DNA from: Paramacrobiotus metropolitanus | Lineage: Eukaryota > Tardigrada > Eutardigrada > Parachela > Macrobiotidae | Assembly (NCBI RefSeq): GCF_019649055.1 | Contig: NW_026570641.1 | Span: forward strand, 1-23,935 | Direction: 5' to 3' | DNA length: 23,935 nucleotides | Part shown: piece after piece, positions 4,156 to 23,935 of the stretch | How the letters are laid out: the number at the start of each line of letters is the position of its first letter | Numbering within the stretch: position 1 is the stretch's first letter | Translations under genes and position numbers: made by a program | The notes under the pieces: generated by a model | Databases searched by the model: none | Told to the model about the DNA's origin: nothing | Seen by the model: the letters and a program-made list of their open reading frames with translations, nothing else

Positions 4156-6210
4156 CGGCTCAGGCTGGTTAACCAATTACATTGAGGTCTATATATTAGG
4201 ACATCATCCTGTGCTCGCGGATATTCCATTACAGATACATGGATATTTTACCTATGTAGCAAGTAATCTGTGTTGATGCTTCCACACCAGAACATGCACG
4301 CGGCATTCCGTTGTAATAAAAAATACAAAAGTACAAATGCATACGTAAATTTAAAAAAGTTAAGGTTGTGAATTGTAGTACACGGAACAAACTGTAGTAC
4401 AAATATCTATCTTGCTTCGTCGTAATATGCTCCCAAACCTTGCAACCGGAATGATATTAAATTCTCAGTTGCTCGACGGAATATAACTTGACTTCCGGTT
4501 TTCATTTATTCCATTCAAAGAATAATATTTCGGTTGCCCATGGGCCATCTCGTATTTCTCTCGTTGAGAAAGGATGCAATTGTAAACTTAAATACTGACT
4601 AATCGACGTGATCAAGCAAAAATGCCATCGACAACAAGAGGCTACGTACGTATGTATACGTATGCATTAGCAAAAGATGAAAACGTGGAACGTCAGTCTG
4701 AATAATTTTACATCAAACGGATCTACGGATCATTACTGCGAACGCGATTTTGTGTCTTACAATTCATCAATGGAAAAAAATTATTTAATAAATACAAAAT
4801 ATGTTTACTTGCCTACAACTTTCCGCAGCTGCTTCAACCGTATCCGACTCATGCCCCGTCAGACTGAAGCTATCTTCCAAACTTCCGCCTCCAGCCCTGC
4901 AGACCATAATGCTCATGTAGATACACTAATAAATTGAAATTATTTCTATTCGGCGGTATCAAATTTCGTTACTGCTGCTCAGTTTAAATCTGCTGAATAA
5001 AACTCACCCCTCAATCAGAACATGATTATTTCAAATTGAAAGTTATGATTTTGGCGGTGATGAAATCTTTGTCGCGTTTCGGGTAATTTGTCGCTGATTT
5101 GTTTGTTGTTTAGAGTTTTGAATTGAACTGCTTGCTAGCCGTGGCGGCGGCTTATTTCAAAACCAGTAAAATAGAGGTCTTTTTAAAAACAATTACACAA
5201 AATAAAATTCAACAATTTTTAAAGCATACAGAAAATCCCAAAATTTCGAGCACGTTAATTAGTCCGTAATATACACTATGTCAAAACACAATTATTTTCA
5301 ATAACAAGAAACTTAGATGGTACTGCAAATCTATATTTTCTGAATTTGTGGTGATATCTAAACCAGTTTACGTTTGTGCAGTCGCTTTAGGACAAATGAC
5401 CCATAATATTTAACAATTTTAATTTAAATTTACTGCTTGGCTGCATGAAACCTTGCCTGCCACTGCTGCTTGTTGCTGGCAGTAAGTCGTCTAGTGCGTT
5501 TAGTTCGTCACTTCTACGGTTCTCTCCAAACATGTCCTCATCCTGCATCAGAAATCTTCAGTGGATGTTACACAAAAGCGATTGGGTGAAAATGCTTACG
5601 GAATCCGTATAAGAGAACATTTCTCCCGAATGGATGATTTTTCCCGTATAACGATAACACAGAGTCGCAGACCACAGTGCTACTGTTCCATCGAATACGT
5701 GATTATCAGGTACAATAAGGAAAATAAAACGAACACATTTTATCCCATTTACGGAAGACAGATCATTAAGCACAACGGAAAGGTAACGGGAAGAACTAAC
5801 AATAATGCGTGCTTGATTTGTAGTGTTTGATGGTCCTGACAGCTGCCTTGTTGAGCGGTACGCTCATGATGCGGCACCGGGTGCTTTGATCTGGCACCGC
5901 GCTGCGCCTTTTTTGTTTCATTCAGTCTACCGGCGCTTTGATTTTGTTAGTGTTCGTTCAAATTTGTTTTGCGCTGGTGCACGAAGAGGAGTATTCTCAA
6001 AATTACCATTTCGGGTGCGGAATACCCTTCCGCTTACCTGACTATTCATTTATGCAGCAGGGTATTTATTTACGACTGATTGTTTCACACTGACAATTGT
6101 GAGTGTAGTACGTACAGAGTACATCAGCGGGCAAGACATCTAATGTAAACTGACTGTCAGGTTTCCTACGTTATGACAGTAATCGTTCTATACGTTGGCT
6201 TGTGATCCGT
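4156..6210. other. Left flank up to the transposon, no gene recognised
   Basis: About 2 kb of AT-rich DNA. Open frames at 4677-4937, 5561-5830 (with an overlapping minus-strand frame) and 5823-6041 show no recognisable domain, no conserved-looking composition and no consistent splice partners. I regard them as chance frames, though an orphan exon cannot be excluded. Confidence 0.4.
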
Positions 6211-6216
6211 CAAGAA
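6211..6216. repeat. Left target-site duplication CAAGAA
   Basis: CAAGAA lies immediately outside the left inverted end and recurs at 22977-22982 immediately outside the right end. A 6-bp duplication placed exactly at both symmetrical ends marks a transposition event. Confidence 0.85.
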
Positions 6217-6480
6217 TATGGAATTCCAAATCCGACAGCCTCATCGATTTGGAAATCTGGAATTGGAAAACATCGTTTCTCGATTTCAAAAACATCGATT
6301 GCGATTTTGCCAACCCGGATGCTGGACTTGGAATTTTTTTTCAGCTTTTGATTTTCCAATTCCACATTCCATTACACGCACTGTAATGGACGTTTCCATA
6401 TAACTTACTGGTATTGGCCTTAACCTGACTTGCTCGCCATACTGTATGTGGAAATCTGGCAGTTTGCGTTGTTGTTGACG
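6217..6480 (+). repeat. Left terminal inverted repeat
   Basis: Compared with the reverse complement of 22715-22976, the first 59 bases match except at base 6 (A versus C). After that, blocks such as GATTTTCCAATTCCACATTC, CCATTACAC, TCCATATAA, TTGGCCTTAA and CGCCATA keep the alignment to about 6450, with weaker similarity to about 6480. It contains repeated TTCCAA/TTGGAA words in both orientations and a palindromic CCATTACAC/CTGTAATGG pair (6368-6389). These are plausible transposase-binding sites. Confidence 0.88.
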
Positions 6481-6558
6481 TTGGTAGAAGTAGAAACTAG
6501 ATTTTTTTTTGAAGAACGAAACCCGTTTATTTCTTCGAGTTGCAGCATCTTTTTTGTT

Positions 6559-6897
6559 TTATTCTGATTTTGTACTTGTACCCGCTGAGGGGCTAAAGTC
6601 CTTCAAGTGCTTATGATCGGGCCGTTGAATGGTGGAGTCCTCGATGTTTACGTCTTCTGGCCCGTTCTGGGGTTCTTGCCGTTGAGTAACAGCTGTATCT
6701 TTCCGCAACCCGAAGCTACCGTTCCATGTGTTGAACGAAAGTCTAAAATTACTTCTGCCACTGTAACTTACAGTGGGATCCATAACGGTCGACTGCGTCC
6801 CAAAATCCGAAGTTCCCCGAACACGGTACGTTTTTTCCGTTACACTTTGTACAGCAGCACTGTAATAATTACGTAATGAATTGTTCGACTGTGTCAC
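6559..6897 (-). CDS. Possible last exon of an unrecognised minus-strand gene
   Basis: An open frame of 112 codons, Ser/Thr/Asn-rich and hydrophilic, ends in TAA at 6559-6561. An AATAAA signal follows on the same strand at 6526-6531, about 28 nt beyond the stop, which is the spacing of a real 3' end. The frame stays open upstream to about 6945. A weak splice acceptor (GTGACACAG on the minus strand) lies near the start, so it may be a terminal exon. I do not recognise the protein. It lies just inside the left inverted end and diverges from the integrase gene, with only about 80 bp between them. It could be a third transposon gene, another captured fragment, or chance. Confidence 0.35.
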   Translation of the reverse strand: MTQSNNSLRNYYSAAVQSVTEKTYRVRGTSDFGTQSTVMDPTVSYSGRSNFRLSFNTWNGSFGLRKDTAVTQRQEPQNGPEDVNIEDSTIQRPDHKHLKDFSPSAGTSTKSE

Positions 6898-6976
6898 AGC
6901 CCAAAATAATTTTTGTAAATTTCGTGGTATTGATGTAAGTACTTGTTACTATTGGTTTCAGTTTGGTGCAGATACA

Positions 6977-9900
6977 ATGGAAGCTTTTTTTGTGTTTGCG
7001 GATTCTGTCGTCAGGCGGGCCAATAGGCTCTTGGATACTGCAGATGGGGATCAAGACGGCATTGAAGGAGCACTGGCGCAAATTGAATATTTAACTGGGT
7101 AAGCTGTAAAAATCCCATAAAATTGCAGTTAACCTAATTTGATTCTGCCACTTTTATTTTGCTGTTTTTCAGTTACACACGGGATATATGCGAAAACTTA
7201 CCTAACGAAGTGACGGGAGATGCTCAGCAGTTGTTCGACGTTTTGCGAAACTGTTCAGAGGGCTTGCACCAGCTACTGCGGGAAGACGAAAATGGGTCGG
7301 ATTATTTCTATGAAATGAAAGGCGGCACTAATAAATACGGAAAAATTTGTATTCCGGATAACGAACTCGGTGAAATGCGATGCGAAGGCTTCACAGTTAG
7401 GGAAATTGCTGGGTTCTTTGGAGTTACGACACGTACGATCGAGCGGAGGCTGGTTGAATACAATTTAAATCACAAGGTAAATTTTAATGCTAGCAAAAAC
7501 TTTAACGGTAGCGTCTTATTTGTATTAGCATGGTCAAGTAAAATAAGCTATTGTGAGTGCAATAAAATTCCAAATTTTATCAGCGCGAAAAAAAAGTTTT
7601 TTGCGGTTTTTATCGTAGTACAGCGATATATCCGACGATGACTTGGACATTGCCGTGCAGGAAATACTCAGTTCGTTTGTGAATGTTGGATATCGTTTCA
7701 TATGTGGTCAGTTAAAGAGTGCTGGATTATATGTCCAGCGAGCTAGGATTCTTTCATCTCTGCGACGCTTGGACCCTTATGGTGTTGCTAATCGGTTTTT
7801 CAACTTGGTCACTCGTCGTAAATACTCCAACCCTGGTCCGAACGCGTTGTGGCACATGGATGGTAATCACAAACTGGTGCGGTGGGGATTTGTTATTCAT
7901 GGAATTATCGACGGATTCTCCAGGCTGATCATTTCACTTGTGGTTGCCACGAATAACCGTGCTAGCACAGTACTAGAAGCCTTTTTGAACGGAGCGGGGG
8001 CGTGTGGAGTCCCATCTCGAGTGAGAAGCGACTGCGGAGGTGGGTTTATATACATTATTCTAAACTAGTGGACCCCGCGCAAACTGCGCGGTGTACAGAG
8101 AGTAGTAGAGATTAGCGTAGAGATAGATAAGAGAGAGATTAAAGAGATTAGCGGAGTAGTAGAGATTAGCGGCTGATAACTGCACGAACTAAATATATTA
8201 TGGAGACCTACTCGTACAATACATATTTTCGTTAATAATACCAAGATCATAATAAATACGTGCTTATCAGTAGTCAGTGTTAATGAACAGCCAGCCAAAC
8301 AACCAAAAACAATTCAGATGCTCTAAATGGCGCGGTGGCATCATTTAGAGCATTTAAAAATAAATTATTAAATTTGACCGCTCCGTTCACCACTTTTTAT
8401 TGCCTTTCAATCGTACTCGTATATCTGTACACAAACAATTTGGAAACTATTTGGAAACTATCGGTACTTGTACTCGTACTGCTTCTCCCTCCATTCATTG
8501 CTTTTATTGACTCGTCCAACGGTCTAAGTCAAAATTCCCTTCGCTTGATATTTATTTGCTTTCGCTTTCGCCACACTCGCTTGTTTTCAGAATATTTCTG
8601 TACTGCACATTCCTTTCATTTCCAAGATATTTCTATAGCATATGTTTTGTAAATGTTCGGAACATGCGCTACTTTAAACAGTTGGACAAAATACCAATTA
8701 TGTAGGCGCGCAGTGAATTTCTGGACAAAGAACATGAATAATTTCTGAAATTCAGAAGAATTTATTGCTCGAACTATAAGAATAATAATTTCTGAGATTT
8801 AGGTATGTTTACAATAATAACGCGTACATCTTTTCAAACAAAGCCAAATCATTATGCAGGAAATATACTGCAAAGTGTTTTCCCACGTCGGACCATGAGG
8901 GACGGCAAAAAAAACCGAAAAGGTATTTTACCGGGTAAATAGTACGCAATAAGTGAGTCAATAACGCAATAATTAGTGCACGGGGAGACCGTAGTGAGAA
9001 CGGTCGTGAGCCAAACGAAGGCAGTAAAAGTTTGTAACGGAGTGGTCACCTTTACTTTTTAGCTTTCAGTTTTCCAGGTCTACTTGTGCTTCGTGATTCC
9101 GTGGCGCCTCGGTGAAATACTGTAGCGTAGATCCGGTGACATTTTCACCAGCAAGTACAAAAGCCCGAATTTAAACAATGTATGCGTTTAGATTGTGCAA
9201 GTTTGGTTTTGCTGTTCCACGGAAGTACGAAGAACTACGCAGAATGTCTCACTTGTTGTTCCGCGAGCTCCGCTCGTGTCGTGTCGCCCGGCCGTCACCT
9301 GGCGGCGAAACAATCAAATTGGATAACATGAGGTTTAAAACCCGAACGCAACGTAGCTAGCAGAAGTTTCCACTCTTACAAAAACTGAACATAACAAACA
9401 CAAAATTTCCCGGCTTTTTCAAATTTAGCTTGTAGCCATTTCCAATTTTCCACAAATTTACAATGCGAAACTACTGCAGCCGCTGCACAAATTTCATAAC
9501 GGGAATAGTTGTCAGATTACTATGTGTAGTTTTTTACAGTACGTTTTATAAAAACCTCCAGAGATGGCAGCTGGACAGTGGACAAACTTTAAAGTTTAAA
9601 CGTGTTCCTTTTAACTTCAAAAATTTAAACGCAAATTATTAATTAAACGAAACTTAACTAGAAACGGGATAATGTGTTGCTAGCTGAAGCCGTACGTTTT
9701 CGCCATAGTACGGTAAAGTCGGCAGACTATCGAACGGTACATAGACATTCAAGTTTGGTTGGACGTGTCAATGACTTAGACCCTGACATACACAAACTTT
9801 GTGCACCTTCTTATTATTTTATATAGATAGATAGATTAAAAAGTAATTCAGGCATAACTAATATAAAATCTTTTGTTACATTAACTGCTTTAACTCTTAT

Positions 9901-10541
9901 GATTCTAATTAAAGTATTATTGATACGCAGGTGAAAATTTTGGAGTTGCAAGATGGATGGAGCATTACATGGGGCCTGATCGAGGCAGTATTATTATGGG
10001 TCCGTCCGTCCATAATCAAAGAATCGAGAGACTCTGGAGAGATTTGGGACGTGTGGTTATAAAACTTTTCCGGTCGGTTTTCATACACATGGAGAATACA
10101 GGCATTCTGGATGTTTCCTTTGCGCGCGACATGATGATACTGCATCTTGTGTACCAGCAAAGAATTCAAGAAAAACTTGGCCAGTTTATCGAATTTTTCA
10201 ATAACCATAAAATGCGAACCGAGCACGAAAAGACGCCTAGGCAGCTATTTATATTAGGATGTCGCGAGAAGGGACTGCACGGATTTTCACTGGATCAGGT
10301 TCTATCAGCAGACAATGTTTTGCCTGAAGCAGATGTTGATGTTGCGGAAAATTTTCCAGCGTATATCAGAAATCATGCCTCGCACTCAAGAGATTCAGTA
10401 CCGGTATTCGACATCATCAGCAGTTTTCCGAATGAGGCGCAGCTGATTTTGGATAGTATAGACGTTATGGCCGATGATGGGATGTACGGAATTGACACAT
10501 TTCAGACTGCAAAAGATTTAGTGCGGTTTCATTTTGGTTGA
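6977..10541 (+). CDS. D,D(34)E integrase-type transposase, four exons
   Basis: Exons 6977-7098, 7173-7476, 7619-8039 and 9931-10541 join in phases 2, 0 and 1 to give 485 residues. Introns are GT-AG. The start ATG at 6977 has a good context (A at -3, G at +4). A helix-turn-helix lies at about residues 112-138 (GFTVREIAGFFGVTTRTIER), and an rve-type core follows. The triad reads Asp223 (WHMDGNHKL), Asp280 (RSDCGG) and Glu315 (HNQRIERLW). The 34 residues between the second Asp and the Glu are the spacing of retroviral and IS3-type integrases. The family is the 'integrase core domain' proteins that are multicopy in fish and cnidarian genomes. It should bind the element ends and perform cutting and strand transfer in the nucleus. 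No internal stop or frameshift was found, so it may be active. A splice-acceptor-like tract just before the ATG (6945-6961) hints at a 5' UTR intron. Confidence 0.9.
8075..8091. repeat. GC-rich hairpin CCGCGC-AAACT-GCGCGG
   Basis: A perfect 6-bp stem with a 5-nt loop lies 35 bp inside the third integrase intron. The word GCGCGGTG at its right side recurs at 8330-8337 beside the second hairpin, so the two may mark the ends of a small nested insertion. Confidence 0.4.
8101..8171 (+). repeat. Direct repeat of AGTAGTAGAGATTAGCG
   Basis: The 17-bp word at 8101-8117 recurs exactly at 8155-8171. Between them are GAGAGATTAAAGAGATTAGCGG-like partial copies. It is a short purine-rich imperfect tandem array. 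Confidence 0.6.
8318..8353. repeat. Perfect 12-bp inverted repeat with 12-nt loop
   Basis: ATGCTCTAAATG at 8318-8329 and its reverse complement CATTTAGAGCAT at 8342-8353 flank GCGCGGTGGCAT. It may be a relic end of an inserted MITE inside the integrase intron. Confidence 0.6.
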
Positions 10542-10798
10542 TGGTACGAATTTTCGAAACAATAATTTTTGAAATTCGGTACTGACACGCGTGCTTTTTT
10601 GAAAATTTATTTCAGTATCTTTTAAATTTATTTCTCGTTTTTTTGCAGCTGGAAACGGAAAACTCGCAGAGATTTCCCGATGGTGCTTTTGTGTCTGAGT
10701 TTTACTCATTGTCAATATTGGAGTCAAGGGTGTCTTAACGTGGTGTTCGTGCATCCCAATATGGCCCATCGGCAGTTCGGAGCGTCTCGTGGCGGACG

Positions 10799-11980
10799 GT
10801 GCTGTGGCCCTGCAGAGCGAAGGTGATTCCATCCGCTTCTTCACTGCTCACCATGACTCCTCTCAATGTTTTCCGGAAATCCGCGACGGCACCCCGGAAA
10901 TCTGTTTCGTGGGTGGCTGGCTGGCTCGTGGGCTCTGGTGAAATCCCTTCTGGAGTGCATTATTTTTATCAGGCAGCAGATGGACAGCATATTTATCTGC
11001 ATCCGATTAACGTGAGAATGCTGACGGCGCAGTATGGGCATGTCCGAGAAGCGCCATTGGAGATCCCTGGGAAGGTGGTGGATGTTGATACATGGAGTAT
11101 TAACGAGGAAATACGAAAACGGTAATTTGAATTTCATGTCTAGTTTTTTCATCTGTGCATTCTTTAGATAACCCATTATGGTTTTCATAGATATCGGTAT
11201 TTATCGCACTTGCCGCTGACGTGTGTGTTTAGCGTGGTGGAACTAGACTTGCAGCCGCCGATGGTGTCCGTGGAGGTGCTGGATAGTTTCGCGTCGGAAA
11301 TCGACTAACGCCATCATGTTCGCAACATCAGAATGCAGTAAGAGTGAGCGATACTACGATCACAAGCTCTCTAATTTATTCCGTATTCGGCTTTTCAAAG
11401 ACGAAATGATGCGCCAGCGTGATGCCGAGAATGCGTTTCGAAAAGATATTCGCGGATGGGTATCCTTTAGTCTGCAGTCGGAGCTGTTTCCGGCCGTCAG
11501 TCCTAGCCCGACGATGGAGGATTTGAATTTGGCCTCGGAAGAAGCATTTCCAGCAGTTGGTAGCGAAACGCTGCTGCCTTCTTCACCTAAAGCCGCCACA
11601 TTGACCCCTAGTACTTCAGCGCCGAAATCTTTTGCACAGGTGCTGTCAGCATTCATTTGAGTTGGAAAAGATTTTAATTTCAATTTTCTATAATTTAGAT
11701 GCTGCGCGAAGGGAAAGTTCAGCGTCAGTCGTCCACCGGAAACGAAGGAATTCAGTCTACGAGCAAACATGTCCCGAAGCAAACATCTTCCGATGAGGAA
11801 AACCAGCAAGGAGCAGCGCCGGATTTCCACGCATCCTTCTCCGCTGGACTGGATGCTGCTTTTAGCCAGCTGGAGATGAGCAGTAGTAAGGCGGAAGGCA
11901 TGGGAGGTAAAGGATCAAAGAAGAAGAAGATAGGCAGCAAGGTGACGTTGTTCGCTACGGGAGTGATGCCGCGCGTTTAG
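10799..11980 (+). pseudogene. RNF10: Captured RNF10 C-terminal fragment
   Basis: The translation follows the C-terminal half of RING finger protein 10, an E3 ligase implicated in ribosomal-protein ubiquitination. The reader sees HYFYQAADGQHIYLHPINVR, then RYRYLSHLPLTC and VELDLQPP, later EEAFPAV, then SFAQ spliced to MLREGK, and the terminal GSKVTLFATGVMPRV. Exons run to 11121, then 11191 to about 11337, about 11395-11639 and 11699-11980. The first and last introns (11122-11190, 11640-11698) join in phase, with AATAAA at 11997-12002. The N-terminal RING part is absent. After FASEID comes an in-frame TAA (11306-11308), and the next donor and acceptor do not agree in phase, so the copy is broken. 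The left limit is uncertain: degraded coding-like sequence may extend back to the acceptor-like TTTTTTTGCAG at 10638-10648. Confidence 0.85.
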
Positions 11981-11996
11981 GCTACGGAGGAACTTT

Positions 11997-12002
11997 AATA
12001 AA
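11997..12002 (+). promoter_or_regulatory. Polyadenylation signal AATAAA after the RNF10 fragment
   Basis: A canonical AATAAA lies 17 nt past the TAG stop of the RNF10-like frame. The original 3' end of the cellular gene therefore came along with the captured piece. Confidence 0.6.
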
Positions 12003-12656
12003 GCTGTAATAAGTATTATCTGTTGTTGACATGATTGGTGCGAAGGAACAGTTGTTATTTAACAGATTTGGTTAATTATTTATTCATTTTCGATTTGATA
12101 ATCGTCATCTGAGTCGTGAATGTCTGCGTTTAAACAGTGTTGTTCTGATATTATAAATTATGATTATTCTAACTTGATGATGATCGATTGTTATCTAGAA
12201 ATTGGACATCGTAGTAGCTTTCTTCGCGGCTTTCGTGGTATCTGGTGTTTAATTGAAATAAATATCGTATAATAATACTTTTGGGGTCGAGTATTTACGG
12301 TCGAGATGTGTGCGTTATATAAACAAGTCGCTGCCATTGCCACCTTACGAACCGGACTACTGTTCTGGAGTTTTGTGTCGCTGTTCAAGAATTTCGGGCC
12401 GTGAGGAAACCGGGAATACCGTAAATGTAAATGACCGGGGAAATGTTTCGTTCAAGGATGAACTTTGGGGCATGTTGGGTTTGTTATAGCACATACTTGT
12501 GCATTTTCCGGTAATCAATAGTTAATTAATACCCTACATAGGATTAGGTTCTGATGATTTCCCTTTTTATTATCAGAAGGCATAGTAAATTACTAGTATA
12601 CTTGTATATTTTTCGTCATACAGCCCATTAATTATACCGTGCCGTATGGCATCCGA
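12003..12656. other. Spacer between the RNF10 and ZDHHC fragments
   Basis: AT-rich sequence with no exon I can identify. Upstream ZDHHC exons (first membrane segments) would be expected here if the captured piece were longer. I could not recognise them, so the capture boundary or decay lies in this stretch. Confidence 0.4.
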
Positions 12657-13841
12657 CGTAGATGTCGAATTACAAATTTTACGAATAGAAAATTCCTATG
12701 CGACTAATCTTCCAGTGCACACCAGAGGCTATAATCAAGGTCAGCTCTGCCGACTGTTTTGTCGTTCCCACCAACGTTAATATGGCGCCGTTTATATAGC
12801 ATCGTTGTAGTGCCGTCTTATTTCCAGATGTTACATACTGCAAGAAGTGCTTTCTCATCAAACCTGATCGTTCGCACCAGTGCTCAGTTTGTGAGAGGTA
12901 AAAACAACCAAATGTCCACGTTCTGGTGTCAACTTCATCCTTATGCCTTTCAATTACAGGTGTATTATACGATTAAAAATTGATCATCACTGGTAATTAA
13001 TTTTTACTCTTTTGTTGTATAACAAGTTCAATATTTCACTGACTTTTTTATTTGTTGCATCCCCTGGTGAGTCTTCGCTTTACTGCTAAATTGTATTTAA
13101 TGTACTGTATTGCACCCATGTCTGTTGATTCGAACGCTTACTCTAGGCCCTGCCTAAAATGCCTTGCAGTTTTCCGTAGAAAGTTATCGATCGCCTATAT
13201 TCGGGCGAGGTATCGATAAGAACGGCTGTCATTTGGGTCACTACAGCAATTTCACACAGATCTTTGGCGATAACTGGCTGTTTTGGTTCCTCCCGGTGGT
13301 TGCAAGGTACTCGTATGTTTATAAATTCTGTTCCACGAATTCGTCTCGGAGCAGGAAAATTGAGGTTAAGTGGCTTTCGGCAGTAGCCCGCATGTGAATA
13401 CTGTAGTTTAAAAAATACCGGCGAGGTACAGTAATTTTCAGTCGAAGTTTTTTCTAAATGTGTTGGCCAATTTAAAATGTTCTGATTCGGATAAGTATGA
13501 GATGGTACTCCTGGTAATGTTGGTTAATATATCCGTAACGTTTTTAAGGTGAAGAGTGACCGGATGTGCTCTTTTGTAACTTCAAAGGCTTGAATAAAAT
13601 GCGAATTATCCGTATTAATAATATTGCGTACTTCTATTACAGCAAAGGCAACGGATTACAGTACCCTGTGCGGTTTTCTCGTGATTTGGCGTATATTGCG
13701 CCGGTGCCTGACTCAACTGCTTCCCAGTTCCCCTCCCATCATGTGTCGCTGGACGTACGAAGTAAGACTACAAGCGACCCTATTCCTCCGAAATCCAGAT
13801 CTTTCCAGAAGGCTAAAGGACATTCCAATAGGTTGATGTGA
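12657..13841 (+). pseudogene. Captured ZDHHC palmitoyltransferase fragment
   Basis: Exons match a DHHC S-acyltransferase of the ZDHHC2/15/20 type, a multi-pass membrane enzyme. In order: ELQILRIENSYATNLPVHTR (exon ending 12739); YCKKCFLIKPDRSHQCSVC, the zinc-rich domain (12828-12897); CIIRLKIDHH plus the first two bases of a Cys codon (12960-12992); ESYRSPIFGRG ... FGDNWLFWFLPV (13170-13306); and GNGLQYPVRF to a TGA (13643-13841). The joins 12739/12828, 12897/12960 and 13306/13643 agree in phase. Defects: the zinc-ligand His before the third Cys is Gln (HQC in place of HHC); two extra residues precede the DHHC; and the exons coding PWVNNC and the third and fourth membrane spans are missing or unrecognisable between 12993 and 13169. 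It should be inactive. Confidence 0.82.
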
Positions 13842-14188
13842 GATTTTTATTTCTGAATTTTTGGTGGTAGTAAGTAGAAGTGTGTATGTCATGGTAGCAT
13901 CCCATCAAATTCCAGGCAAGTTTCGATGTCTCTAATTTCGTTGTTTGCCACAATTTGCAAACTGCGTCACCGTAACAAATTCAACAAATTGATATATTAT
14001 CAAAATATATTTTGTTCAGGTTGTCGTTGAGGAGAAAATGTGAACAAGATTATGGATTATGATTTTGTTTTTATTAGTGACTATTTGCCTATTAGTTTTC
14101 GGTTATAATTTCTGCCGCATGCTATAGCAACGGCCACGCATATTCGGTTTTAACCGGCATCGCACCGATGACCAACACACTGTTTAGG

Positions 14189-14291
14189 AGGCGCAGCTAT
14201 GGCTGGATGTGGATGCGGGTGAGACGAATCTCATCGCCCTGGACGCACCCAGTTTTCCCTGTAATCCGCAAGAGCAGCGCCAGTCACATTA
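14189..14291 (+). other. Possible orphan terminal exon
   Basis: After a good acceptor (CACACTGTTTAG ending 14188), a GC-richer frame reads EAQLWLDVDAGETNLIALD and on to a TAG at 14289-14291. The composition is coding-like and unlike its AT-rich surroundings. It could be the last exon of the ZDHHC gene or of another captured gene; I do not recognise it. Confidence 0.35.
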
Positions 14292-14310
14292 GCGGGACCA
14301 GCCACGGCTT

Positions 14311-14352
14311 GTTTTAGTTAACGAATAGTTCGCTGGTTTTAGTTAACGAATA
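14311..14352 (+). repeat. Direct repeat GTTTTAGTTAACGAATA
   Basis: The 17-bp word at 14311-14327 is repeated exactly at 14336-14352, giving a period of 25 bp. It is a small tandem duplication. Confidence 0.7.
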
Positions 14353-15592
14353 TTAGACTTTGATTGGGTCTGCATTTTCTAATTCCTTTCTGCAAATTTC
14401 CTTTGGGTTGTTTTATTTTTGACGGGGTTGTAGTCATTTATTGCAGATACGGTGCTGATTTGCTTGAACTTTCGGTTTTGGGCTTTTTCTGTCGGCTTTG
14501 AATTTCTGATAATTATGATGCAGCTCTGGAAAGTTATTGAAAGTTAACGAAAATAAAATTAACCACAAAAAATATAACTGGTGTTCTCTTCAGGCGAACT
14601 CAACATTGTTTTCGTTTTCATACGAAAAACCCAGACCAGTCCTGGCAGTCCATAATGTTGGGAAAACTGATTTGTAACAAAATACCGCATAAGACATTTG
14701 CTGCGATAATTTTATTGTTACTAAATAGCGGTAAACTTAGTTTAAAGTTAAACAGTCCAAAAAACCAAAAACAATTTCATCAGTTCGTCCGCACATTCAC
14801 ATGGTGCCACAATTTTTCCAAAAAGGAAAAGGTAAGAAGTATCAATATTCCAGAAAAAGCCCCACACTCAAATCCGCAGCAAATTACCTCCAAAAAAGCA
14901 GCAGTAAACCAAATGTGTCAACTTTTCGCCCAGTAAGCGAAAGTGCAAAAAATCGAAACAAAACAGGGGTGCTAAAAAAATATACACACAAACCAAAGCA
15001 ACAAAATAGGTGCTGCCGATGCCGGCATGTTTACACACCACCATCCTACTTGCTATCCAAATCCGAGCTGGACTAAATCCAAGTTCAATTGATTATTCCA
15101 CTCAAATCAGGTTAAAAAAGGTATAAAAAGTAATCTGCAGCTTCTTCCTCCACACGGCCGTCCAGTTACCGTTACCGCATAACAAGCCCTGAAAACAGCA
15201 GCGATTTACGATAACACTACTTTAATTGTTTTATTTTAAATCGAAGGTCATTTTTATTGTTATGGGTAGACAAATTATTGTTATGGGTTTGAATCACAAA
15301 TAAACACCCATCTCACCACGCTAACATGATTTTCGGGCGCTTAGCAATTTAACTATGCGTCCGGAATGTTTCCGGACGCATAGCATTTTCGTAAATTAGG
15401 TTATGTGACTTATTGTTGAATTACGGGTGCTGGAAATCCAAATAGTCATAAATAAAAATTTAAATTCCCTTACACGTTGTTCATTTGATCTGGAAAACCG
15501 TTCTACTAATCAGCGAATCGTTTTGGTTTCTATCACGCATATACAACCGCTATGCAACTACTACTGTTTAACGCAGTCCACTTAACTCAATT
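14353..15592. other. Central spacer between convergent genes
   Basis: This 1.2-kb stretch separates the + strand block from the 3' end of the HECT gene. Open frames at 14655-14936 and 14801-15076 are Lys/Gln/Ser-rich but match nothing I know and lack splice or Kozak support. ATTGTTATGGGT occurs twice near 15256-15287. The strong hairpin at 15353-15383 is its most structured part. Confidence 0.4.
15353..15383. repeat. Perfect 14-bp hairpin with 3-nt loop
   Basis: CTATGCGTCCGGAA at 15353-15366 and its exact reverse complement at 15370-15383 flank TGT. It lies about 210 bp past the HECT stop codon. It could help 3'-end formation, be a tiny foldback element, or be a folded RNA. Confidence 0.75.
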
Positions 15593-18500
15593 TCAGCCAA
15601 GTTGGAAACTTCCTTGTAGGGGGTGATCCATCGTATCCAGACACTCCCGAATCAATTCCAGCAATTTCTCTTTGCTCGGACAGGCCAAGGGAAGAAGCAG
15701 GGTGTTATTACACGTTCCGGCCGTCGGTCGTCGCAAAAAACGTCCATCGTTGCTAAAAAGAATCTGAATCTTTGGAGATGCCGGCATTGAATGCGAGCCT
15801 GTGATAAATCGGAGTAACTTTCGACGGTCGGAGCAGGAGAGGTCATCTTTGATGATATCGTCTAGCCAGGCGGCGAGCACGACCTCATCGGCCGAAGCTT
15901 CATCGTAATCCACAGCGATAAATTGCTCCAACAAGTCGTTTCCCATCAATACTGAATTGTACAGCGCATCTTCCATTATCTTCCAATTTGGCAGTAGTGC
16001 TTTTAATTCCTGAAAAATGCGACAATAAGGAAACGCTTATTCGAAAATGAATAAAAATTATTTCCCATTTTCTATTATTATTTTTTATTTTTTTATTATT
16101 TATTATTTCTCACCTTAATAAAACCACCGGCTAAGAAACCTTCGTACACGTAGCGGAGATTTTCAGCTCGCTTGCCTACCAGTTCGTACTCAGCAATGTA
16201 CTGACAGAATGTTTCCCGGCTGCTTTTCATCAGCTCCCTACACTGTAAAATAATCTACGATTATATTCAGTTGCACCACCCAAAAATTCACTATTATTAC
16301 CGGGAAAGTTGGATTATTTTCCGCCCATTGTTTCAGCATCGGCTCTTGATGCATGGTTAATTCTCCAGACCCCGATAAAATACGCTCGATCATATCTCCC
16401 ACGCCCTTATCAAAATGGAACACCTCATTCAGTTCAAGGGGTAAACCTAGCATGCTTCGCAGAACGCTGCTGGATAGCCAGTCGGGATACGACGCACCAC
16501 GCATCACTGCTTCGCGCAACATAAAACCGGAAGCCCTTAAGACAGCGCGCCCTTCTTCGGTTACAATGGGAACCGCCGTGTACAGCACCACCAAATTTAT
16601 TTCCACAAAAAGGGGCTCGTTAATATCCGGGAATTTATAATAACGAGCATCTTGCCAATAGCGAGAACCGAATTCTTTGTAAGGGCCATCAGCATCGACC
16701 GCACTGAAAATCAAAAACCGCAATGGAAAAATATTATTTATTGTAGGTTCATGAGCAGATACACATTACAAAATTCGATTTTTAATCTTTAACAAAAATG
16801 CCGTGCGGATTTAAAAATTCCAGCTTACCCATCCATTCGGACTTGAAACCGTCCTGCATTGGCAAGGTCATCACCATGCGCACAGTAGAAATTGCTGAAA
16901 TTTTCAACATTTTTCTCCTGAAGCCACCCGTATACGAACTGTGACTTGACCATCGGATACTCGTGTGTCATTTTAACGGATAATTGATCACGCATATCCT
17001 TAACCGTCAAGTATTGATTTTCAGGTTCCGGAAGATCTCGTACTGTAAATCTTTTCTTTAACGTGGGATCTGAACTTTCCGCATCGTCTTTAGTGGATAA
17101 TAGAGGCAGAATTTCTTTTACGGACGGCGTTTCAAGGGATTCAACATCACTGTCGTCTGAGAAATGCAGTGTTACAATCTCTGATCGGTTTTGCGGGCCT
17201 TTCGCTGGGATCCGAACACCCGCAAAGCGAACTGGGCGGTGATCTCGCTCCGGTGATGATGGTGGAGTGTCCAGGTCAAAAACAGTGCTACGTCGCTTGC
17301 CAACTGTAAAGCCGCGGGATCCACGGCCACCAAAGCTGGAAAAGCCTCCTTCATCATCTACGCGGGCAGTTGAGCGAAGGCCGGATGTACTGGCCTGCTG
17401 GTCATCTCGGCGGTTGTTTTCTCGCTTGACCGCTTCTGAAAATCCAGAAATAATGTGTCTGTGCAGTGCAGCTTCTACAGTGTGGCCTTATTAACTGCAT
17501 GATTTTATCAAGCTGCTCAAATTTAGCTGATTGTACGTCCTCGATACCTTCGATATTTTCCAGTGGTAATTCCTCAACGGTCATCCCTCGAGCCTAAAAC
17601 CGGAAGCAACAAATTCAAAATTAAACATTAAAGGATAATGAATTTAATTTCCTTTTTCAGTGAATTATCTTTGCTACGTTTGAAAAAAATTAAAATCTAT
17701 ACCTCAGCCGTCATTCATTGCAATGAAAATGTGACGATAAACGTCGCCAACCTCCGTTTCAGAAATCCTGAAAATAAGAAAATTAACATTATCGCATTGG
17801 GGCCCGACGTTCTTCCCGGAAAACTAAATAAATACATTTCTTGCTTTTCCCAAGCCCGGTGATCAACAACATTTGCCGCGTACAGCCAGTATCCTTTCTT
17901 TTTCCCCTTTCCAGTGCGCGACAGAAGTGTCCAAGGCCGACCTTGCAGACGATCCACAAAAAGCTGAGAAATGCTCTGGATGATGTGATCTTGCGTAAGC
18001 TTATCAAATTCAATTAACCGAATAAGTCCCATATGGTCCATCAGCTCCAGTTCAAGCTGATGTTCGCTGCAAAATTTCAACTGCTTGATCGTTTTTTACT
18101 TACTAAGCTAAGCACTAAAGTTAAGCTGACAATAACTGATAAAATGTGGCGAAATCATGTTAATGCAAAACTACGGAAAAACGTACTTTTTTGATTTTGG
18201 AGGCGGGACCACATTTTTGTTCCTCTTTCGAAACAAATACACGCGGAAATTGTATGTAATCTCAAGCTGGGGCTCTTTAATTGGATCTGGTGGCGCTTGT
18301 GCATTGAATGCTGGTGACCGATGAATGGCTAAGTTCGGGCGCTTCGCAGTACCTCGTCCACCGGTCGTCGCAGCCCATCGCCCAGCTGACCCACTAAATG
18401 GAAACGACGGTGACCCACCCAGTCCAACACATCTGCTTCCGCCGGGAAACCGGACCCCACGTCCAACACGTTCGCTTCCGCCGGGAAACCGGCCCCCATG

Positions 18501-19213
18501 TCCAACACCTCCGCTTCCACCGGGAAACCGATTTCCTGACCCAGCACCGACCCCGGCGCGGTAATTCATCGGCTCACTATGTGGAGTATGCGTAGATGGC
18601 TGTCCATGGGTATTGCTCGAGGCACGAAATCCAGACTCACTGCCATCTCCTGTCGCAAACGGACTACAAAGCGAAAACTCAAAGAATACACAGTGCAAAA
18701 TTTTATACCATAATGAATTAAAAAATTATCCATAATGACTTTAAACGAGACGACAAAAATGCGAGTAACCACTGCTGTACTTTCACCGGTAAATATCATG
18801 CCACAAAGCTTTGATCTGAGCCGCAACTCTTTTGCCCACTGGCAGGCTTTACAAACTACTTTTAACCACTACTGCAAGTAAATTTTAATATTTGATAATT
18901 ATCATATTTTAATATTTTACCTGTTTTCTGCCAACTGATCGATGCTTTGCGGAGATGTGACAATCGCCGGAATTCCATTCACACATTGGTCTGCTTCATT
19001 TATGTTGCGTCCAGACTGGCTGTTAACATGATGCCGCAAATGATCTTCCCAGTTCCTTAAATGATGTATTGCCAAGTAATGACCGCAACCGTTACGTCCA
19101 GAACAATTCGCATTGCCTAACGCCCATGAAAAATTTAATTCTGTAGGAGATCGGATAATGCAATGGCAGTCAGAGAAATCACACTTATACTCGTACTGCA
19201 ATAGACTCGCCAT
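15593..19213 (-). CDS. Transposon-borne HECT E3 ubiquitin ligase
   Basis: Minus-strand exons: 19213-18921, 18663-18187, 18066-17836, (17767-17752), 17593-17496, 17458-16829, 16703-16301, 16242-16114, 16009-15593; about 897 aa. The ATG at 19213 has A at -3 and G at +4. The N-terminus is Cys/His-rich (C11, C16, C18, C37, C43, several His), so it may bind zinc. Next is a Gly-rich part with three RFPGGS repeats. A small domain (MGLIRLIEFDKL ... GRPWTLLSRTGKGKKKGYWL) resembles one I recall N-terminal to HECT in repeated fish and cnidarian proteins. An acidic linker and the HECT domain follow. HECT marks are FQVRMDGAVDADGPYKEFG, and DRRKLLRFITG then PTAGTCNNTLLLPL. The catalytic Cys codon is at 15712-15710, 38 residues from the C-terminus. 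Ubiquitin is passed through that Cys. The join between 17836 and 17593 is uncertain: a 16-nt exon fits the phase, and two separate genes are also possible. The element's second gene, with no internal stop found. Confidence 0.85.
17459..17495 (-). other. Putative 37-nt intron in the HECT gene
   Basis: Donor CA|GTTAAT and acceptor CTGCACAG|A join phase 2 to phase 2 and give LDKIMQHIISGFSEAVKREN, a smooth helical linker. An alternative is donor GAAG|GTATCG (intron start 17546) to acceptor TTTTCAG (17436), which also fits in phase but removes about 24 residues. Confidence 0.45.
18424..18540 (-). repeat. 39-bp coding minisatellite in the HECT gene
   Basis: Three in-frame copies of a 39-bp unit code RFPGGSGGVGHGG, RFPGGSERVGRGV and RFPGGSRCVGLGG. 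The units start near 18434, 18473 and 18512. Such Gly/Arg-rich repeats are usually disordered and change length easily. Confidence 0.8.
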
Positions 19214-20106
19214 TATGTTTCTATGAAAAAATTCAGTTTATCGCAAAAACGGCTGGTTTAATTTCTCCGCTAACGAACTTCAGAAACATGCGTCAATTCT
19301 AACAAATTTTAAAAGAAATTGCCTGTGACTGAAATTTAAACTAACCGTCCAGACGTCCAGTGCACTCTGGTCTCATCGGCAGTTAGAACAAGCGTGGCAA
19401 AGACGTACCAGCTCAGCACGCCTGTTATGTAACAGGCCAATCGGAAGTGGATTCACTAAGAAGCGCGCCATTAACGTTTTAACAATGGCGAAACCGTCAA
19501 TGGCGACCGGCGCGGCGAGGAAGAAACTCGGCACCTTTTGATCCAACGCAACGGCATCAGTTTTTTTGGTAAGACCGAATGACGATACTTTTTTGCAATG
19601 CATAATCTACCTTGTGAAACCCAAATGTTAATTACAAGCAAACATACAAGTTACAATACAGGACTTGTGTGTAATAATGTGTAGAAGTAGGAAACTCTGT
19701 TTTGTAGTTGTTTTGCATTAGTGCCAGTTGCTTTCCAACCAAGTTAACGGCTATTACGTTTTAATTCACTCTTTACTCAGCAATTCGCATGTTTCGGTAG
19801 TCAAGTAGTCAACCAAAAATGCCATCACCTCTTCCTTACTTGCGCATCTGTTTCAGTGCAAATATTTCATATATTACTCTGAAGTCTTTACTAGGTAGTA
19901 CGAACTGCGGCTGCATCCAAAATTCTATGAAATAAACTTAATTTAAAAATTTCCGGAAAATTATCTTCGTCGACAAATCTTGATTACAGAAAAGATAACT
20001 TCGTAACCGCATGACAAAACACTAACAACAATAAATAAAGATCCGAAATAAACAAAAAACACTTGTCTATCGCAGAAAAGAGAGTAATGACTCAATCGCA
20101 CTGACC
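19214..20106. other. Spacer between HECT start and eIF3B fragment end
   Basis: It should hold the HECT promoter. I see no clear TATA box. A stand-alone minus-strand frame (19373-19603) occupies part of it; the rest is AT-rich without recognisable content. Confidence 0.4.
19373..19603 (-). CDS. Small unrecognised minus-strand ORF
   Basis: The 76-codon frame starts at an ATG with A at -3 and is GC-richer than its surroundings. It contains a hydrophobic stretch (VPSFFLAAPVAIDGFAIV) and ends with a Cys-rich CHACSNCR. A donor-like GACG|GTTAGT follows the stop closely. It lies upstream of the HECT gene on the same strand and could be an extra exon, a captured fragment or chance. I do not recognise it. 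Confidence 0.25.
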   Translation of the reverse strand: MHCKKVSSFGLTKKTDAVALDQKVPSFFLAAPVAIDGFAIVKTLMARFLVNPLPIGLLHNRRAELVRLCHACSNCR

Positions 20107-22560
20107 CAGTCACAGCGACTCGGCAATATTAGGAATATCGTACTCCACATCCACCGTAATCACACGTATAAACTCCTCTCCATTCTCATCTTCTTCCAAC
20201 TTGGAGGGAACCAGCTCTGGCGTGGGTGCCACACCACCGACCTCCTCCACAAAACTCGATAATGGAAATTGTTTGTCCGCTAGCGGTGACGTGTCCATGT
20301 CGGAGAACGCGCCAACTGGCAAATGACGACCGGTGTGCCTCGGCCCGTAGCCGCTTCCGCGCAAGCACACAAAACACCCTGTCGCCTAGTTTGTAGCCTA
20401 CATACCAGCATTAAAAGGTCAGTCAATTTCGAAAATTTACCTGTCAAATGGTTTTTTACGTTAAATGGATCAGCAATGTTTTCAACTTCAATTCTACCCT
20501 TCTTCCACTAGATGTTTTTACTATTCCTAAACTGTCTTCCTGTTGTGGACACCAAAATACGCACCTTGTTTTCGTGCCACTGGTTTGTGTCGTCCTTGCT
20601 CGAAGTTGCGCTGTTTTGTCGTCAAAAAATCCATAAACTCTGTCATCAGGCGTTTTCGTCGCTCCGACACTTCCTAAATCAACATAGTCACGGTTTTTGG
20701 GCTTTCCTTTGCTGCAGTCACATCAACCCACCTTCGACGCCTTCGACGCCAGCTATCGATCCTTAATTTCAAATTCCAATGCGTATTTCTTCAAAAATTT
20801 TTTTGAAAATTTTTTTATGTCCTTAAGCTTCTCTGCCGGGAAAATCGAAGGGGCGGGTCTCGGTCGCCAGCCCAGCATACTCAATCCATCCACTTTCTCA
20901 TTACGGATATAGCGGCCTTGAAAGGAATTCAGTGTAAATCCATTCTCTTTCTGCAAATTCACAATAATTTTGGATGGCGAAAACCAACAACTTAAAGAAC
21001 ATCAGCAAACGATAACGGTATCAATCTGGAGAGGACGCAAACAACTGCACTGTCTTGAAACACAGAAAGTATGATAATGAATTACAACAACCAGTTACCG
21101 CTCAATAAGGTTCGATATTTTTTTGATAAAACCCAACGAAGAAACAAAAAATCACTGGTGGTACTCAATTATTAAACAACAATTATACCTTGTTTCCGGC
21201 ATTCGAAGAGGACGTAACTGCTGTGAGGTGGCGTCCTGTGGGATCCCACTGGACATCAAAGAGCAGAAAGTGTTAAACATCTCCCAACACTGACAAATCG
21301 GCGGTATCCACAAAAAATTAAACACCCAACGCTTCCGCTGCATAACATACAGACAGTGTCAATCAACACACTGTCAGGAATACTACTGTGCTTTACCTGG
21401 AAGCCGTGTGAACGACGAACTGACCCACTGGCGACCAGGAAACTTTCTCGACCTTTGTGCCGCAGCGCTAATTTTCTATAACGTATTCAAACATAATTAG
21501 CACCATAAAACTGTAAAAAATGCGGCAAAATAAACAAATACTAATCTACTAAATAAATAATACTAAATTACATCGCAGAATAAATTTATAAAGTAATGGC
21601 AAGAAATAAAATGCACTTCGAGTCTTTATGTAACTCTCTTGAATTGTCTCAAACATCTGCTTATTATATAAATGCTACAAGCAGATAATTGTAATCAAAG
21701 ATCTGAAAGTTGCAAAAGACCTGCAACTTTTCCATGGACAACGACGTTTACTGACTAATTACAAAATGATGCCTTGTCGTCAACTATGGAAATTAGTCAA
21801 TTTACTGAACCAGCAACAGTCAGCACTACTAATTTGTTGCCATTTGGCTCCCGGGAAAAATCTACGATGGAATCTGCAAACGCCAATAAAATTCATTAGA
21901 AGTTTTTCTGATAAATCGCCGCATATTACTAAAATGAATTAACTTTTAAATTTTTACTAATCAAAGGAAGATACTCTGTAGAGGCAAAAAGATCAGCAAC
22001 GTGGTTACAAAAGAAAACTGATCTTGTAAAATAAGCTCAATCAATCTGTTTCTCTAACAACCTGCAACCTGCTACGAAAACTGGTAGTCCATTCTTATTT
22101 TAGTACCGAAAAATCTCGCAACGTGTAAGTTTATGTCTAGTCAAACCTGTCCCACTCTACTGTGCTCACCTCGTATTTTAGTGGATTCTACGGGGCTCCC
22201 GTTCGTTTAATTAGGGCGAAAATCTCCAGGTTGATGAAATATTCCACCGTAGTCAAACTTGTTTCGCTCTTTCCTTGATATGGTTATAAACGCTCCACGT
22301 TGACGGCCATATAATCACCGTTTTCTACCAGCAGAACTCGCAGTCCTTGACGCCGAACAGCTGTATAATGCGGATCTTTTCCATGGGCTTGTCTTTATCC
22401 GGTGGAATGCACAGAAGAACGACTGATGGCGACGGAGTTTTCATAGACTCTGAATCTCCAGAAACGTCCTGGAGATCCATGGAAACAACATAGTGGAGAT
22501 TGAGAACTCGATAGATCCTACAAAACGGGACGATATAGCCAGGAGACACGAGATAGCACA
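20107..22560 (-). pseudogene. EIF3B: Captured, decayed eIF3B fragment
   Basis: It follows the C-terminal two thirds of eukaryotic translation initiation factor 3 subunit B (WD40-like propeller and C-terminal helices that hold eIF3 together on the 40S subunit). Blocks in order: IPPDKDKP ... LFGVKDCEFCW (to 22325), GDYMAVNVER, EYFINLEIFALIKRTGAP (to about 22172), REPNGNKLVVL (from 21873), VEKVSWSPVGQFVV (21467-21397), IFVDTADLSVLGDV then FDVQWDPTGRHL (21337-21189), FTLNSFQGRYI and LGWRPRP (20950-20732), EVSERRKRLMTEFMDFL (20673-20565), and an acidic tail to 20110. Most exon edges keep GT and AG. Damage seen: in-frame stops after EFCW (22327-22325), VERL, RTGAP, LGDV and EIKDR (20755-20753); lost bases after EFCW; an extra T in the T-run before VDTAD; and a probable frameshift in the last exon. 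The RRM end is absent. Confidence 0.9.
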
Positions 22561-22714
22561 GGATGACACTTCAAAGGGATCGAAAACTGCCATACTAACA
22601 GCTGCAGATTTCTCTGAAATATATATATCCGCAAATCTGAATAAATCCATTTAAACAGACTAAAACAATAAGGAAAAACAACTTTTCATCGTAATTGTCA
22701 AATTGTACAATACT

Positions 22715-22976
22715 GTATAAAACTGCAACGCCAACGCAACATCCAGACTTCACTATGGCGTGCACACCAGATTAAGGCCAAGTCCAGTCATTTATATGGA
22801 AAAATCCATTACAGGTAGTGTAATGGAATGTGGAATTGGAAAATCAAAAGTTGAGAAAAATTCGAAGTCCAGCACCCGTGTTGGCAAATCGTAATCGATG
22901 TTTTCAAAATTGACAATCGATGTTTTCCAATTCCAGATTTCCAAATCGATGAGGCTGTCGGATTTGGAATGCCATA
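22715..22976 (-). repeat. Right terminal inverted repeat
   Basis: This is the reverse-complement partner of 6217-6480 and ends ...GGATTTGGAATGCCATA. The outer 59 bp match with one difference. Inner blocks diverge by substitutions and a few small gaps. The palindromic CCATTACAGGTAGTGTAATGG lies at 22806-22826. Confidence 0.88.
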
Positions 22977-22982
22977 CAAGAA
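22977..22982. repeat. Right target-site duplication CAAGAA
   Basis: Identical to 6211-6216 and directly abutting the right inverted end. The next base on the right, T, equals the first base of the left end, so a 7-bp reading (CAAGAAT) is possible, but 6 bp keeps the ends symmetrical. Confidence 0.85.
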
Positions 22983-23253
22983 TCAAGATGCTGGATATTT
23001 CGAGCTAAACTTTACTTCAGAGTTCAGTAAGTAACACCCCCAAGTCTCCCCATTTTCTTGATGTGCGAACAGCTGCTTTTAGGAAACCTATTACTGCAAG
23101 GTTGTAATTACGGTCTACACTGTTTATTCACTTCGTCGCTGTATTTTCCGGGCATGTGCCGTAGCCAGAGTTACAACTTTCAGCGCTCACAAATGAAGTT
23201 ACAATTAGACACTGAAAGCCAGAGTTTGTTTGTCGAAGCCGATTGTATGCTAG
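22983..23253. other. Right flank, no gene recognised
   Basis: This host-side sequence next to the transposon is part of an open frame (23058-23450) whose only notable portion is the downstream repeat. I see no domain or splice support. Confidence 0.4.
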
Positions 23254-23430
23254 TCAGAGCCTCAGAGTCAGAGTTTCATTGGTCAGAGTCAGAGTTTCAT
23301 TGGTCAGAGTCAGAGTTTGAGTGGTCAGAGTCAGACTTTGGGTGGTCAGAGTCAGAGTGGTCAGAGTCAGAGTGGTCAGAGTTTGAGTGGTCAGAGTCAG
23401 AGTTTGAGTGGTCAGAGTCAGAGTCAGAGC
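23254..23430 (+). repeat. GTCAGAGTCAGAGT minisatellite
   Basis: An imperfect tandem array is built from TCAGAGT units joined as GGTCAGAGTCAGAGTTTGAGT and shorter variants. Read in the open frame at 23058-23450 it codes for repeated SESEFEW/SESEW, a Ser-Glu-Trp polymer. The frame has no other support as a gene, so I list only the repeat. Confidence 0.75.
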
Positions 23431-23469
23431 TTGAGCGCGGGCCCTTCTAAAAGACTAACTGTTCGAATA

Positions 23470-23935
23470 CCGTAATTATCGAATTTGTGGCCCTGGGGTA
23501 CAAATAGTTCGAACGCTATGGCGGAGGGGCTTATTTCGGGGGGTGGCATTATTTTTCGAACGGTATTTTTTGGGAGGGGGCATTATATTTCAAACAACTG
23601 CGCATCCAGTTCTAGTGAAATTGAGCGCAGTAGTTACCGGTATACGCAAAAGCGCAACCTTCCCATCAACATTTTCGAGCATATACTTAGATCCCCATAC
23701 ACCTTTTTGCCAACGAATACCGCATTATGTTGATGTTCGTTTAATGTTTGCTCACAATCACAACAGTTCTTAAAAAACATTTGCGGTACACCTATCATTT
23801 TGCAGCGCTTGGCATTTTTTAACGGCCCCCTGGGGCGTAATTTCGGGGGGTGGCCTTATTTTTCAAACAGGGTCGGGGGGCTTATTACACGGGGTGCTCT
23901 TATTGCGGGGGGAGCCACAAATTCGATAATTACGG
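23470..23935. mobile_element. Small element with perfect 22-bp inverted ends, cut by the window edge
   Basis: The 22 bases at 23470-23491 (CCGTAATTATCGAATTTGTG then GC) are the exact reverse complement of 23914-23935, the last bases of the window. The interior is G-run rich. A direct repeat, TTTCGGGGGGTGGCNTTATT, is found at 23534-23553 and 23841-23860, plus similar GGGGGGCTTATT words. It looks like a non-autonomous MITE. The right end may extend beyond the window. Confidence 0.6.

Follow-up and report, generated by a model that had tools for sequence, protein, structure and literature searches.

Evidence for a lineage of large IS3EU-type DNA transposons with an integrase, a predicted HECT ligase and captured host gene pieces in the tardigrade Paramacrobiotus metropolitanus

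The IS3EU/GingerRoot elements are eukaryotic DNA transposons whose published ends read TAYGG..CCRTA or TA..TA and which are flanked by 6-bp target-site duplications. In two reports, their transposase is described as an integrase-type DDE enzyme, and fungal members as carrying extra genes for a TET/JBP dioxygenase and an alpha-kinase (PMC10045372, PMC12730594). The stretch of DNA analysed here (the window) is contig C421, 23,935 bp long, of the 169.8-Mb genome of the tardigrade Paramacrobiotus metropolitanus, the contigs of which are denoted by C-numbers. At positions 6217-22976 it holds a 16,760-bp element that very probably belongs to a lineage of large DNA transposons of IS3EU type in this species, equipped with an integrase, a steady HECT partner gene and captured pieces of host genes.

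The element starts with TATGG at 6217 and ends with CCATA at 22976, its ends form an inverted repeat of 228 bp at 87% identity (BLAST E 1.3e-73), and CAAGAA is read on both sides, at 6211-6216 and 22977-22982. A first-pass annotation of the window had described a transposon of about 16.8 kb with exact ends, TATGG...CCATA inverted termini and a CAAGAA duplication, enclosing an integrase gene, a HECT ligase gene and three cellular gene pieces. Each of these parts was recovered: the integrase gene as four exons at 6977-10541 with an open frame of 485 amino acids, the HECT gene on the minus strand at about 19213-15593, its last exon matching PF00632 at E 1.6e-11, and the gene pieces as a mosaic filling 10734-15076 (10734-10923, 10931-12697 and 12691-15076), each with a parent elsewhere in the genome (on C33, C22 and C63, respectively). 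Copies elsewhere that share these ends and have 6-bp duplications, which the annotation had suggested seeking, also exist. Genome searches, whose counts of copies and loci are lower bounds, recovered three families with common termini, and 18 of the 20 two-ended copies are bracketed by exact 6-bp duplications, the remaining two having one mismatch and no duplication, respectively. More than 10 kb separates the ends in 13 of these 20, and most of the clean long copies span 14-17 kb. The element is no one-off: with at least 13 long ones, a steady ligase partner and a collection of host genes, the first finding had been understated. The features of the window copy are, by position:

6211..6216, no strand: left target-site duplication CAAGAA, as read in the sequence
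6217..6444, plus strand: left terminal inverted repeat, starting TATGG (alignment, BLAST)
6977..7098, plus strand: integrase exon 1 (spliced frame; protein identical to RefSeq)
7173..7476, plus strand: integrase exon 2, with helix-turn-helix matches, all under curated cut-offs
7619..8039, plus strand: integrase exon 3, with the first two catalytic aspartates, D223 and D280
9931..10541, plus strand: integrase exon 4, with the catalytic E315, ending at the stop codon
10734..10923, plus strand: GT4 glycosyltransferase gene piece (parent C33:386532-386720, 86%; paralogue on C19)
10931..12697, plus strand: RNF10-like gene piece with introns kept (parent C22:780318-778511, 91% then 80%; no Pfam match)
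12691..15076, plus strand: DHHC gene piece with introns and downstream sequence (parent on C63, running from 442007 down to near 438865; roughly 85% identity with a single internal deletion)
15593..16703, minus strand: exons of the HECT domain, at 16703-16301, 16254-16108 (approximate, placed from RefSeq and C85) and 16009-15593, bearing the TC-N cysteine motif
16829..17593, minus strand: two HECT exons (17593-17548 and 17435-16829)
17703..17767, minus strand: small HECT exon, with a 38-bp deletion and frame break in the window copy, open in C3
17836..18066, minus strand: HECT exon
18187..18663, minus strand: Gly/Ser/Pro-rich HECT exon
18921..19213, minus strand: first coding exon of HECT
22751..22976, minus strand: right terminal inverted repeat, ending CCATA (alignment, BLAST)
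22977..22982, no strand: right target-site duplication CAAGAA; the TCAAGA that follows at 22983-22988 belongs to the 7 scar-like bp by which the window exceeds C7

The window copy belongs to family A, for which a left-end search gave 16 matches. Its two-ended copies are C421 (16,760 bp), C3 (14,480 bp) and C61 (13,912 bp) together with the internally deleted C4 (3,023 bp) and C6 (3,365 bp), all five with exact 6-bp duplications; copies on C2, C522 and C23 were left out of the count as each has one clean end missing. On C61, at 555145-559227, the left end and 30 bp of identical flank are present three times, about 2.04 kb apart, either as a real duplication or as an assembly effect. Compared per 500 bp, C421 and C3 diverge by 1.4-2.8% as far as about 10.2 kb, by 9-16% from there to 10.9 kb and by 3.8-11.7% to the right of 14.2 kb. 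The lower values on the left indicate more recent common ancestry for this part, a sign that element copies may have exchanged sequence.

In family B the left end was found at four places with four different flanks that diverge precisely at TATGG. Six close two-ended copies (C85, 16,174 bp; C121, 24,272 bp; C4, 16,106 bp; C2, 16,728 bp; C64, 15,279 bp; C231, 3,874 bp) and three short relatives with ends about 70% similar (C37, C10 and C2:1426004) bring the total to nine; the duplications are exact in seven, contain one mismatch in C4 and are absent in C231; two further match pairs, C26:6711-9976 and C137, are not counted. Five of these elements, whose duplications are exact in four cases and differ at one position in the fifth, have in common a cargo-bearing 4-kb interior at 99-100% identity, present at six places, two of them within C121. 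Such near-identity across duplication-flanked elements argues that the composite moves as one unit. C121, with two integrase matches and two interior copies 8.2 kb apart, looks like an internal tandem duplication. Family C comprises six copies (C5, 17,460 bp; C26, 17,344 bp; C34, 15,091 bp; C2, 15,089 bp; C112, 41,832 bp; C88, about 1 kb), all with exact duplications, C88 having been read by eye with a left terminus of TAAGG. The C112 copy (159810-201641) has 41.8 kb between its ends and matching duplications CATCAC, and its right 30 kb may hold nested insertions.

The annotation's placement of the element in the IS3-like eukaryotic superfamily agrees with the published IS3EU traits, given TA..TA termini, 6-bp duplications and an integrase that matches rva_4 (PF24764) at E 1e-73, above the cut-off. 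The spliced product, intact over 485 amino acids, is identical to isoform X2 of RefSeq LOC129602365 (P0001). As no Integrase_Zn match was found in it at E 0.1 in Pfam, it would consist of a DDE core without the N-terminal HHCC zinc domain; together with the TATGG..CCATA termini and the 6-bp duplications, these sequence features support an IS3EU-type assignment. All 34 aligned sequences, namely the query and 33 relatives chosen among the matches listed (120 of 1,661), share D223, D280 and E315 without exception. Named relatives among the matches listed come from fish, mussel, soft coral, sponge, fungus and another tardigrade, most of those listed being unnamed; the tardigrade Hypsibius exemplaris contributes P0009, P0019 and P0032. 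For an AlphaFold model (predicted local distance difference test score, pLDDT, 81.4), the structural matches include retroviral intasomes, IstA and TnsB; their template modelling (TM) scores by query length are low, 0.13-0.32 among the 50 matches listed. A PDB sequence search with the integrase gave no match worth using, and one scan of viral_contigs with integrase-derived patterns, which would detect close relatives only, gave no match pointing to a viral origin. The ratio of nonsynonymous to synonymous substitution rates (dN/dS) of the integrase frames against C3, 0.47-0.61, stems from few changes and is too weak to use.

The second steady gene of the element lineage is HECT. Its spliced frame in C3 is open over 885 amino acids, and a RefSeq protein (P0121) of 798 amino acids, with one exon more than the spliced C3 frame and a later start, matches PF00632 at E 6.6e-13; the TC-N cysteine motif is present in all three RefSeq proteins. 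The gene thus has the domain match and catalytic cysteine of a predicted HECT E3 ligase. A genome search with one HECT exon gave 21 matches at 20 loci, all 20 with an integrase within 10 kb, and the reciprocal search with one integrase exon gave 32 matches at 27 loci, 21 of them with a HECT match. By strand, the two genes occur in four arrangements: convergent (family A); on the same strand with the integrase first; on the same strand with HECT first (C312, C45, C88); and divergent (C86:47787/54122). The pairing persists despite changed orientation, which speaks for HECT as an integral part of the element. Its six larger frames look constrained, with dN/dS of 0.05-0.51 between the window and C3 and 0.15-0.61 against C61. 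A relative search among 7,993 scored candidates found three proteins at E 1e-3, all from P. metropolitanus, by a word-based method that may miss distant ones. At window positions 20459-20722 (minus strand), an 88-amino acid frame without a Pfam match (dN/dS 0.25 for C421 against C3) might be a further HECT exon or belong to a third gene.

Cargo is found downstream of the integrase gene, in the families read between integrase and HECT, and its content differs by family. Every named piece has a place of origin in the same genome. In family A, the GT4 piece is longer in C3 and C61, which share its first part with the window, and these two copies carry an LSM14-like piece (parent C25) between the GT4 and DHHC pieces. 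The RNF10-like piece has no match in the other copies. Of the DHHC piece, only the part right of 14451 is shared with C3 and C61; the piece extends about 600 bp to the right of the stretch missing from those copies. Family B carries a piece of a gene for the 49-kDa subunit of complex I (PF00346, E 3.9e-30) at six places in five elements, at 99-100% identity. Its likely parent is C10:1756584-1759568 at 78%; smaller stretches show up to 91% identity to further segments of C10 whose order is changed, so that the source assigned there is tentative. Family C carries a PIWI piece (PF02171, E 7.3e-9; C112:163266-163616), about 100% identical in C112, C5 and C26 and 89-95% with gaps in C34 and C2; embedded in it is a GcvT piece (PF01571, E 2.7e-21; from C6:1125688-1128003, 89%). 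The likely PIWI parent lies at C2:260500-261700, and among PDB entries its first exon comes nearest to Piwi-like protein 2; a reading of this locus as a relative without cargo was rejected, its frames matching the Piwi domain in order. PIWI genes are a class that silences transposons, here carried in pieces by family C elements. An element on C28, known by its interior, carries an EF-hand piece (C15, 91%) and a piece of the C3:2075398 locus (85%), and 81 bp of it match C15 on the opposite strand. Presumably, the GT4 piece is ALG2-like, the C22-derived piece RNF10-like, the LSM14-like piece EDC3, the EF-hand piece plastin, the GcvT piece AMT and the 49-kDa subunit piece NDUFS2. PDB sequence searches gave no match worth using for the RNF10-like piece and none for the GT4 piece.

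Introns are kept in several pieces, which argues that these were copied from DNA. At the joints between pieces, AATTCCT is shared at C22/C63 and GGT at C25/C63. The first, frame-richer half of the RNF10-like piece is 91% identical to its parent and the rest 80%, as would be expected if the parent were constrained and the captured copy were not. All eight scored pieces (GT4, RNF10-like, DHHC, LSM14-like, 49-kDa subunit, PIWI, GcvT and EF-hand) lie in the sense of the integrase, with a binomial value of 0.004 for a test conceived after the data had been seen. Five were identified by Pfam matches above the cut-off, two by matches below it and the RNF10-like piece by its long open frame; the count excludes the C3:2075398 piece, which has no Pfam match and a parent that was not read, and the 81-bp C15 match.

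Several observations weigh against this account of the element. The rve (PF00665) match of the integrase falls below the cut-off. The window HECT gene is broken by the 38-bp deletion in its small exon, and that of C61 is disrupted by several small indels; a structure model of HECT from three sequences reached a pLDDT of 31.5 and was not used, so that the ligase call depends on the PF00632 match and the cysteine motif. Across the HECT region, dN/dS of overlapping frames varies from 0.15 to 3.7, which makes single values soft. Among the pieces, DHHC scores 21.9 bits (cut-off 28.7) and LSM14 21.6-26 bits (cut-off 30), the RNF10-like piece is without a Pfam match, and the 81-bp C15 match on the other strand would break the sense rule if it were a captured piece. 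The joints C33/C22 and C33/C25 have a few unaligned bases in place of a shared word.

One alternative is a composite, in which host duplicates were inserted into a small IS3EU element by other processes and HECT was a passenger of one lineage. Cargo does vary among copies, C3 and C61 lacking the C22 piece, and six of the 27 integrase loci have no HECT match nearby (C51, C2:3804556, C86:257554, C158, C231 and C70), at least two of them in shortened copies. The composite is nevertheless hard to reconcile with the integrase found beside every HECT locus in four relative arrangements, with HECT frames that look constrained and with cargo at 99-100% identity in five elements bearing exact or, once, single-mismatch duplications, and it appears improbable. 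A self-replicating element of the Maverick/Polinton type is harder still to credit, and we regard it as extremely improbable. These elements, at 15-20 kb, overlap the present one in size class, inverted repeats and the rve integrase class, but they start with AG, unlike the TA..TA termini here. No match to DNA polymerase B, capsid, ATPase or protease was found among 26 window frames searched against Pfam, including all 21 stop-to-stop frames of at least 100 amino acids in the element, although shorter exons could escape; stray matches to BSP and Med16_C were weak and under their cut-offs. Those integrase relatives that bear names, a minority among the 120 matches listed, are rva_4 proteins from animals and a single fungus. 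Polintons likewise make 6-bp duplications, according to one report (PMC10045372).

How the element moves is a separate question, on which loci without it are informative. The window flanks are repeated elsewhere in the genome (left, 4200-6216; right, 22977-23700), and both meet without the element at three paralogous loci, on C7, C368 and C209. The junction reads CCGTCAAGATG at C7 and CCGTCAAATG at C368, and C209 is similar with further changes, whereas the window flanks joined at one CAAGAA would read CCGTCAAGAATCAAGATG, 7 bp longer than C7. The target is TCAAGA-A-TCAAGA in the window and a single TCAAGA in C7 or TCAAA in C368 and C209, the latter two having the C7-like form without one G. 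An empty site with a single CAAGAA, as foreseen in the first-pass annotation, is therefore borne out in the continuity of the flanks and not in the junction itself, as none of the three reads exactly one CAAGAA. The 7 extra bp would be left if an earlier element with the duplication TCAAGA had departed, leaving one base, and the present element had then inserted in CAAGAA; a small tandem duplication before insertion explains them as well. Of the cut-and-paste movement that had been claimed, insertion with exact ends and a duplication is observed, and excision is hinted at solely by the scar-like 7 bp. As bacterial IS3 elements move by copy-out, the window insertion might instead have arrived by copy-out/paste-in. 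Against this, TCAAGA-A-TCAAGA looks like an excision scar, although a local tandem duplication would look identical, and copy-out seems rather unlikely. Around the insertion, 4200-6216 and 22983-23444 of the window form part of a repeated segment on C7, C368, C209 and partly C9; a TCAGAGT-like tandem array adjoins the insertion at 23262-23445, with a similar array on C23, and an imperfect 650-bp palindrome, 67% self-complementary, lies left of the element at 879-1529.

Taken together, movement and capture by an IS3EU-type lineage could be pictured as follows. To judge by its family, the integrase, with its catalytic triad D223, D280 and E315, would bind the long inverted ends, pair them and join them to the target with a 6-bp stagger, and gap repair after joining would leave the 6-bp duplications. 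Breaks downstream of the integrase gene would be repaired, probably by template switching into host genes, and intron-containing host fragments could thereby be written into the element and later moved along with it. Template switching during break repair is the capture route proposed for animal Pack-TIRs (transposons with terminal inverted repeats and captured host DNA), in PMC8277862. The HECT ligase would probably help the element, either through ubiquitination of a host silencing factor or through control over integrase turnover. By analogy with TET in fungal elements, for which help against host control has been proposed (PMC12730594), the same would be its most likely role. A more ambitious version, which at present seems quite unlikely, holds that the lineage stays complete around an integrase and HECT core: the ligase would disarm a host silencing factor, and sense host pieces, PIWI included, would be taken up downstream of the integrase and carried on its transcripts, where they might interfere with or hide from small-RNA defence. 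The near-identical long copies make both the ligase role and the capture mechanism testable.

Compared with the IS3EU/GingerRoot elements of the two reports, the tardigrade element is alike in its TATGG..CCATA ends, 6-bp duplications, DDE integrase and possession of extra genes, as in fungal members, and unlike in its HECT partner gene and captured intron-bearing host pieces. The partner genes recorded for IS3EU elements would thereby come to include a ubiquitin ligase; no paper linking HECT to IS3EU-type elements was found in the literature searched, which covers few subscription journals. Ubiquitination-linked extra domains occur in another large animal transposon, the giant Burro elements of planarians, interpreted as meddling with host systems; these are long terminal repeat retrotransposons, and the paper mentions neither HECT nor IS3EU (PMC6431247). 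Turmoil-1 of Caenorhabditis elegans, likewise a DNA transposon of an animal, contains parts of two host genes, one of them with an intron, but it belongs to the Harbinger superfamily, measures 5 kb and holds its host pieces inside the inverted repeats (PMC2572040).

The usual Pack-TIR is non-autonomous, without a transposase of its own. The window element has the host-derived interior of a Pack-TIR, with parents still in the genome, together with an intact integrase. Animal Pack-TIRs and plant Pack-MULEs resemble it in carrying captured host DNA in a DNA transposon, with introns kept in some, microhomology at many joints and amplification of the multicopy ones by transposition; the tardigrade element differs in keeping integrase and partner gene, with its cargo downstream of the integrase and all scored pieces in sense, and neither IS3EU nor tardigrades appear in the text of the animal Pack-TIR paper (PMC8277862). 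Here a terminal inverted repeat transposon of an animal has retained an integrase of its own and, at the same time, carries and multiplies pieces of several host genes with their introns. According to the same source, single-copy animal Pack-TIRs arise mostly by gap filling and multicopy ones by fork switching and transposition, and the tardigrade families offer both single-copy and multicopy capture situations.

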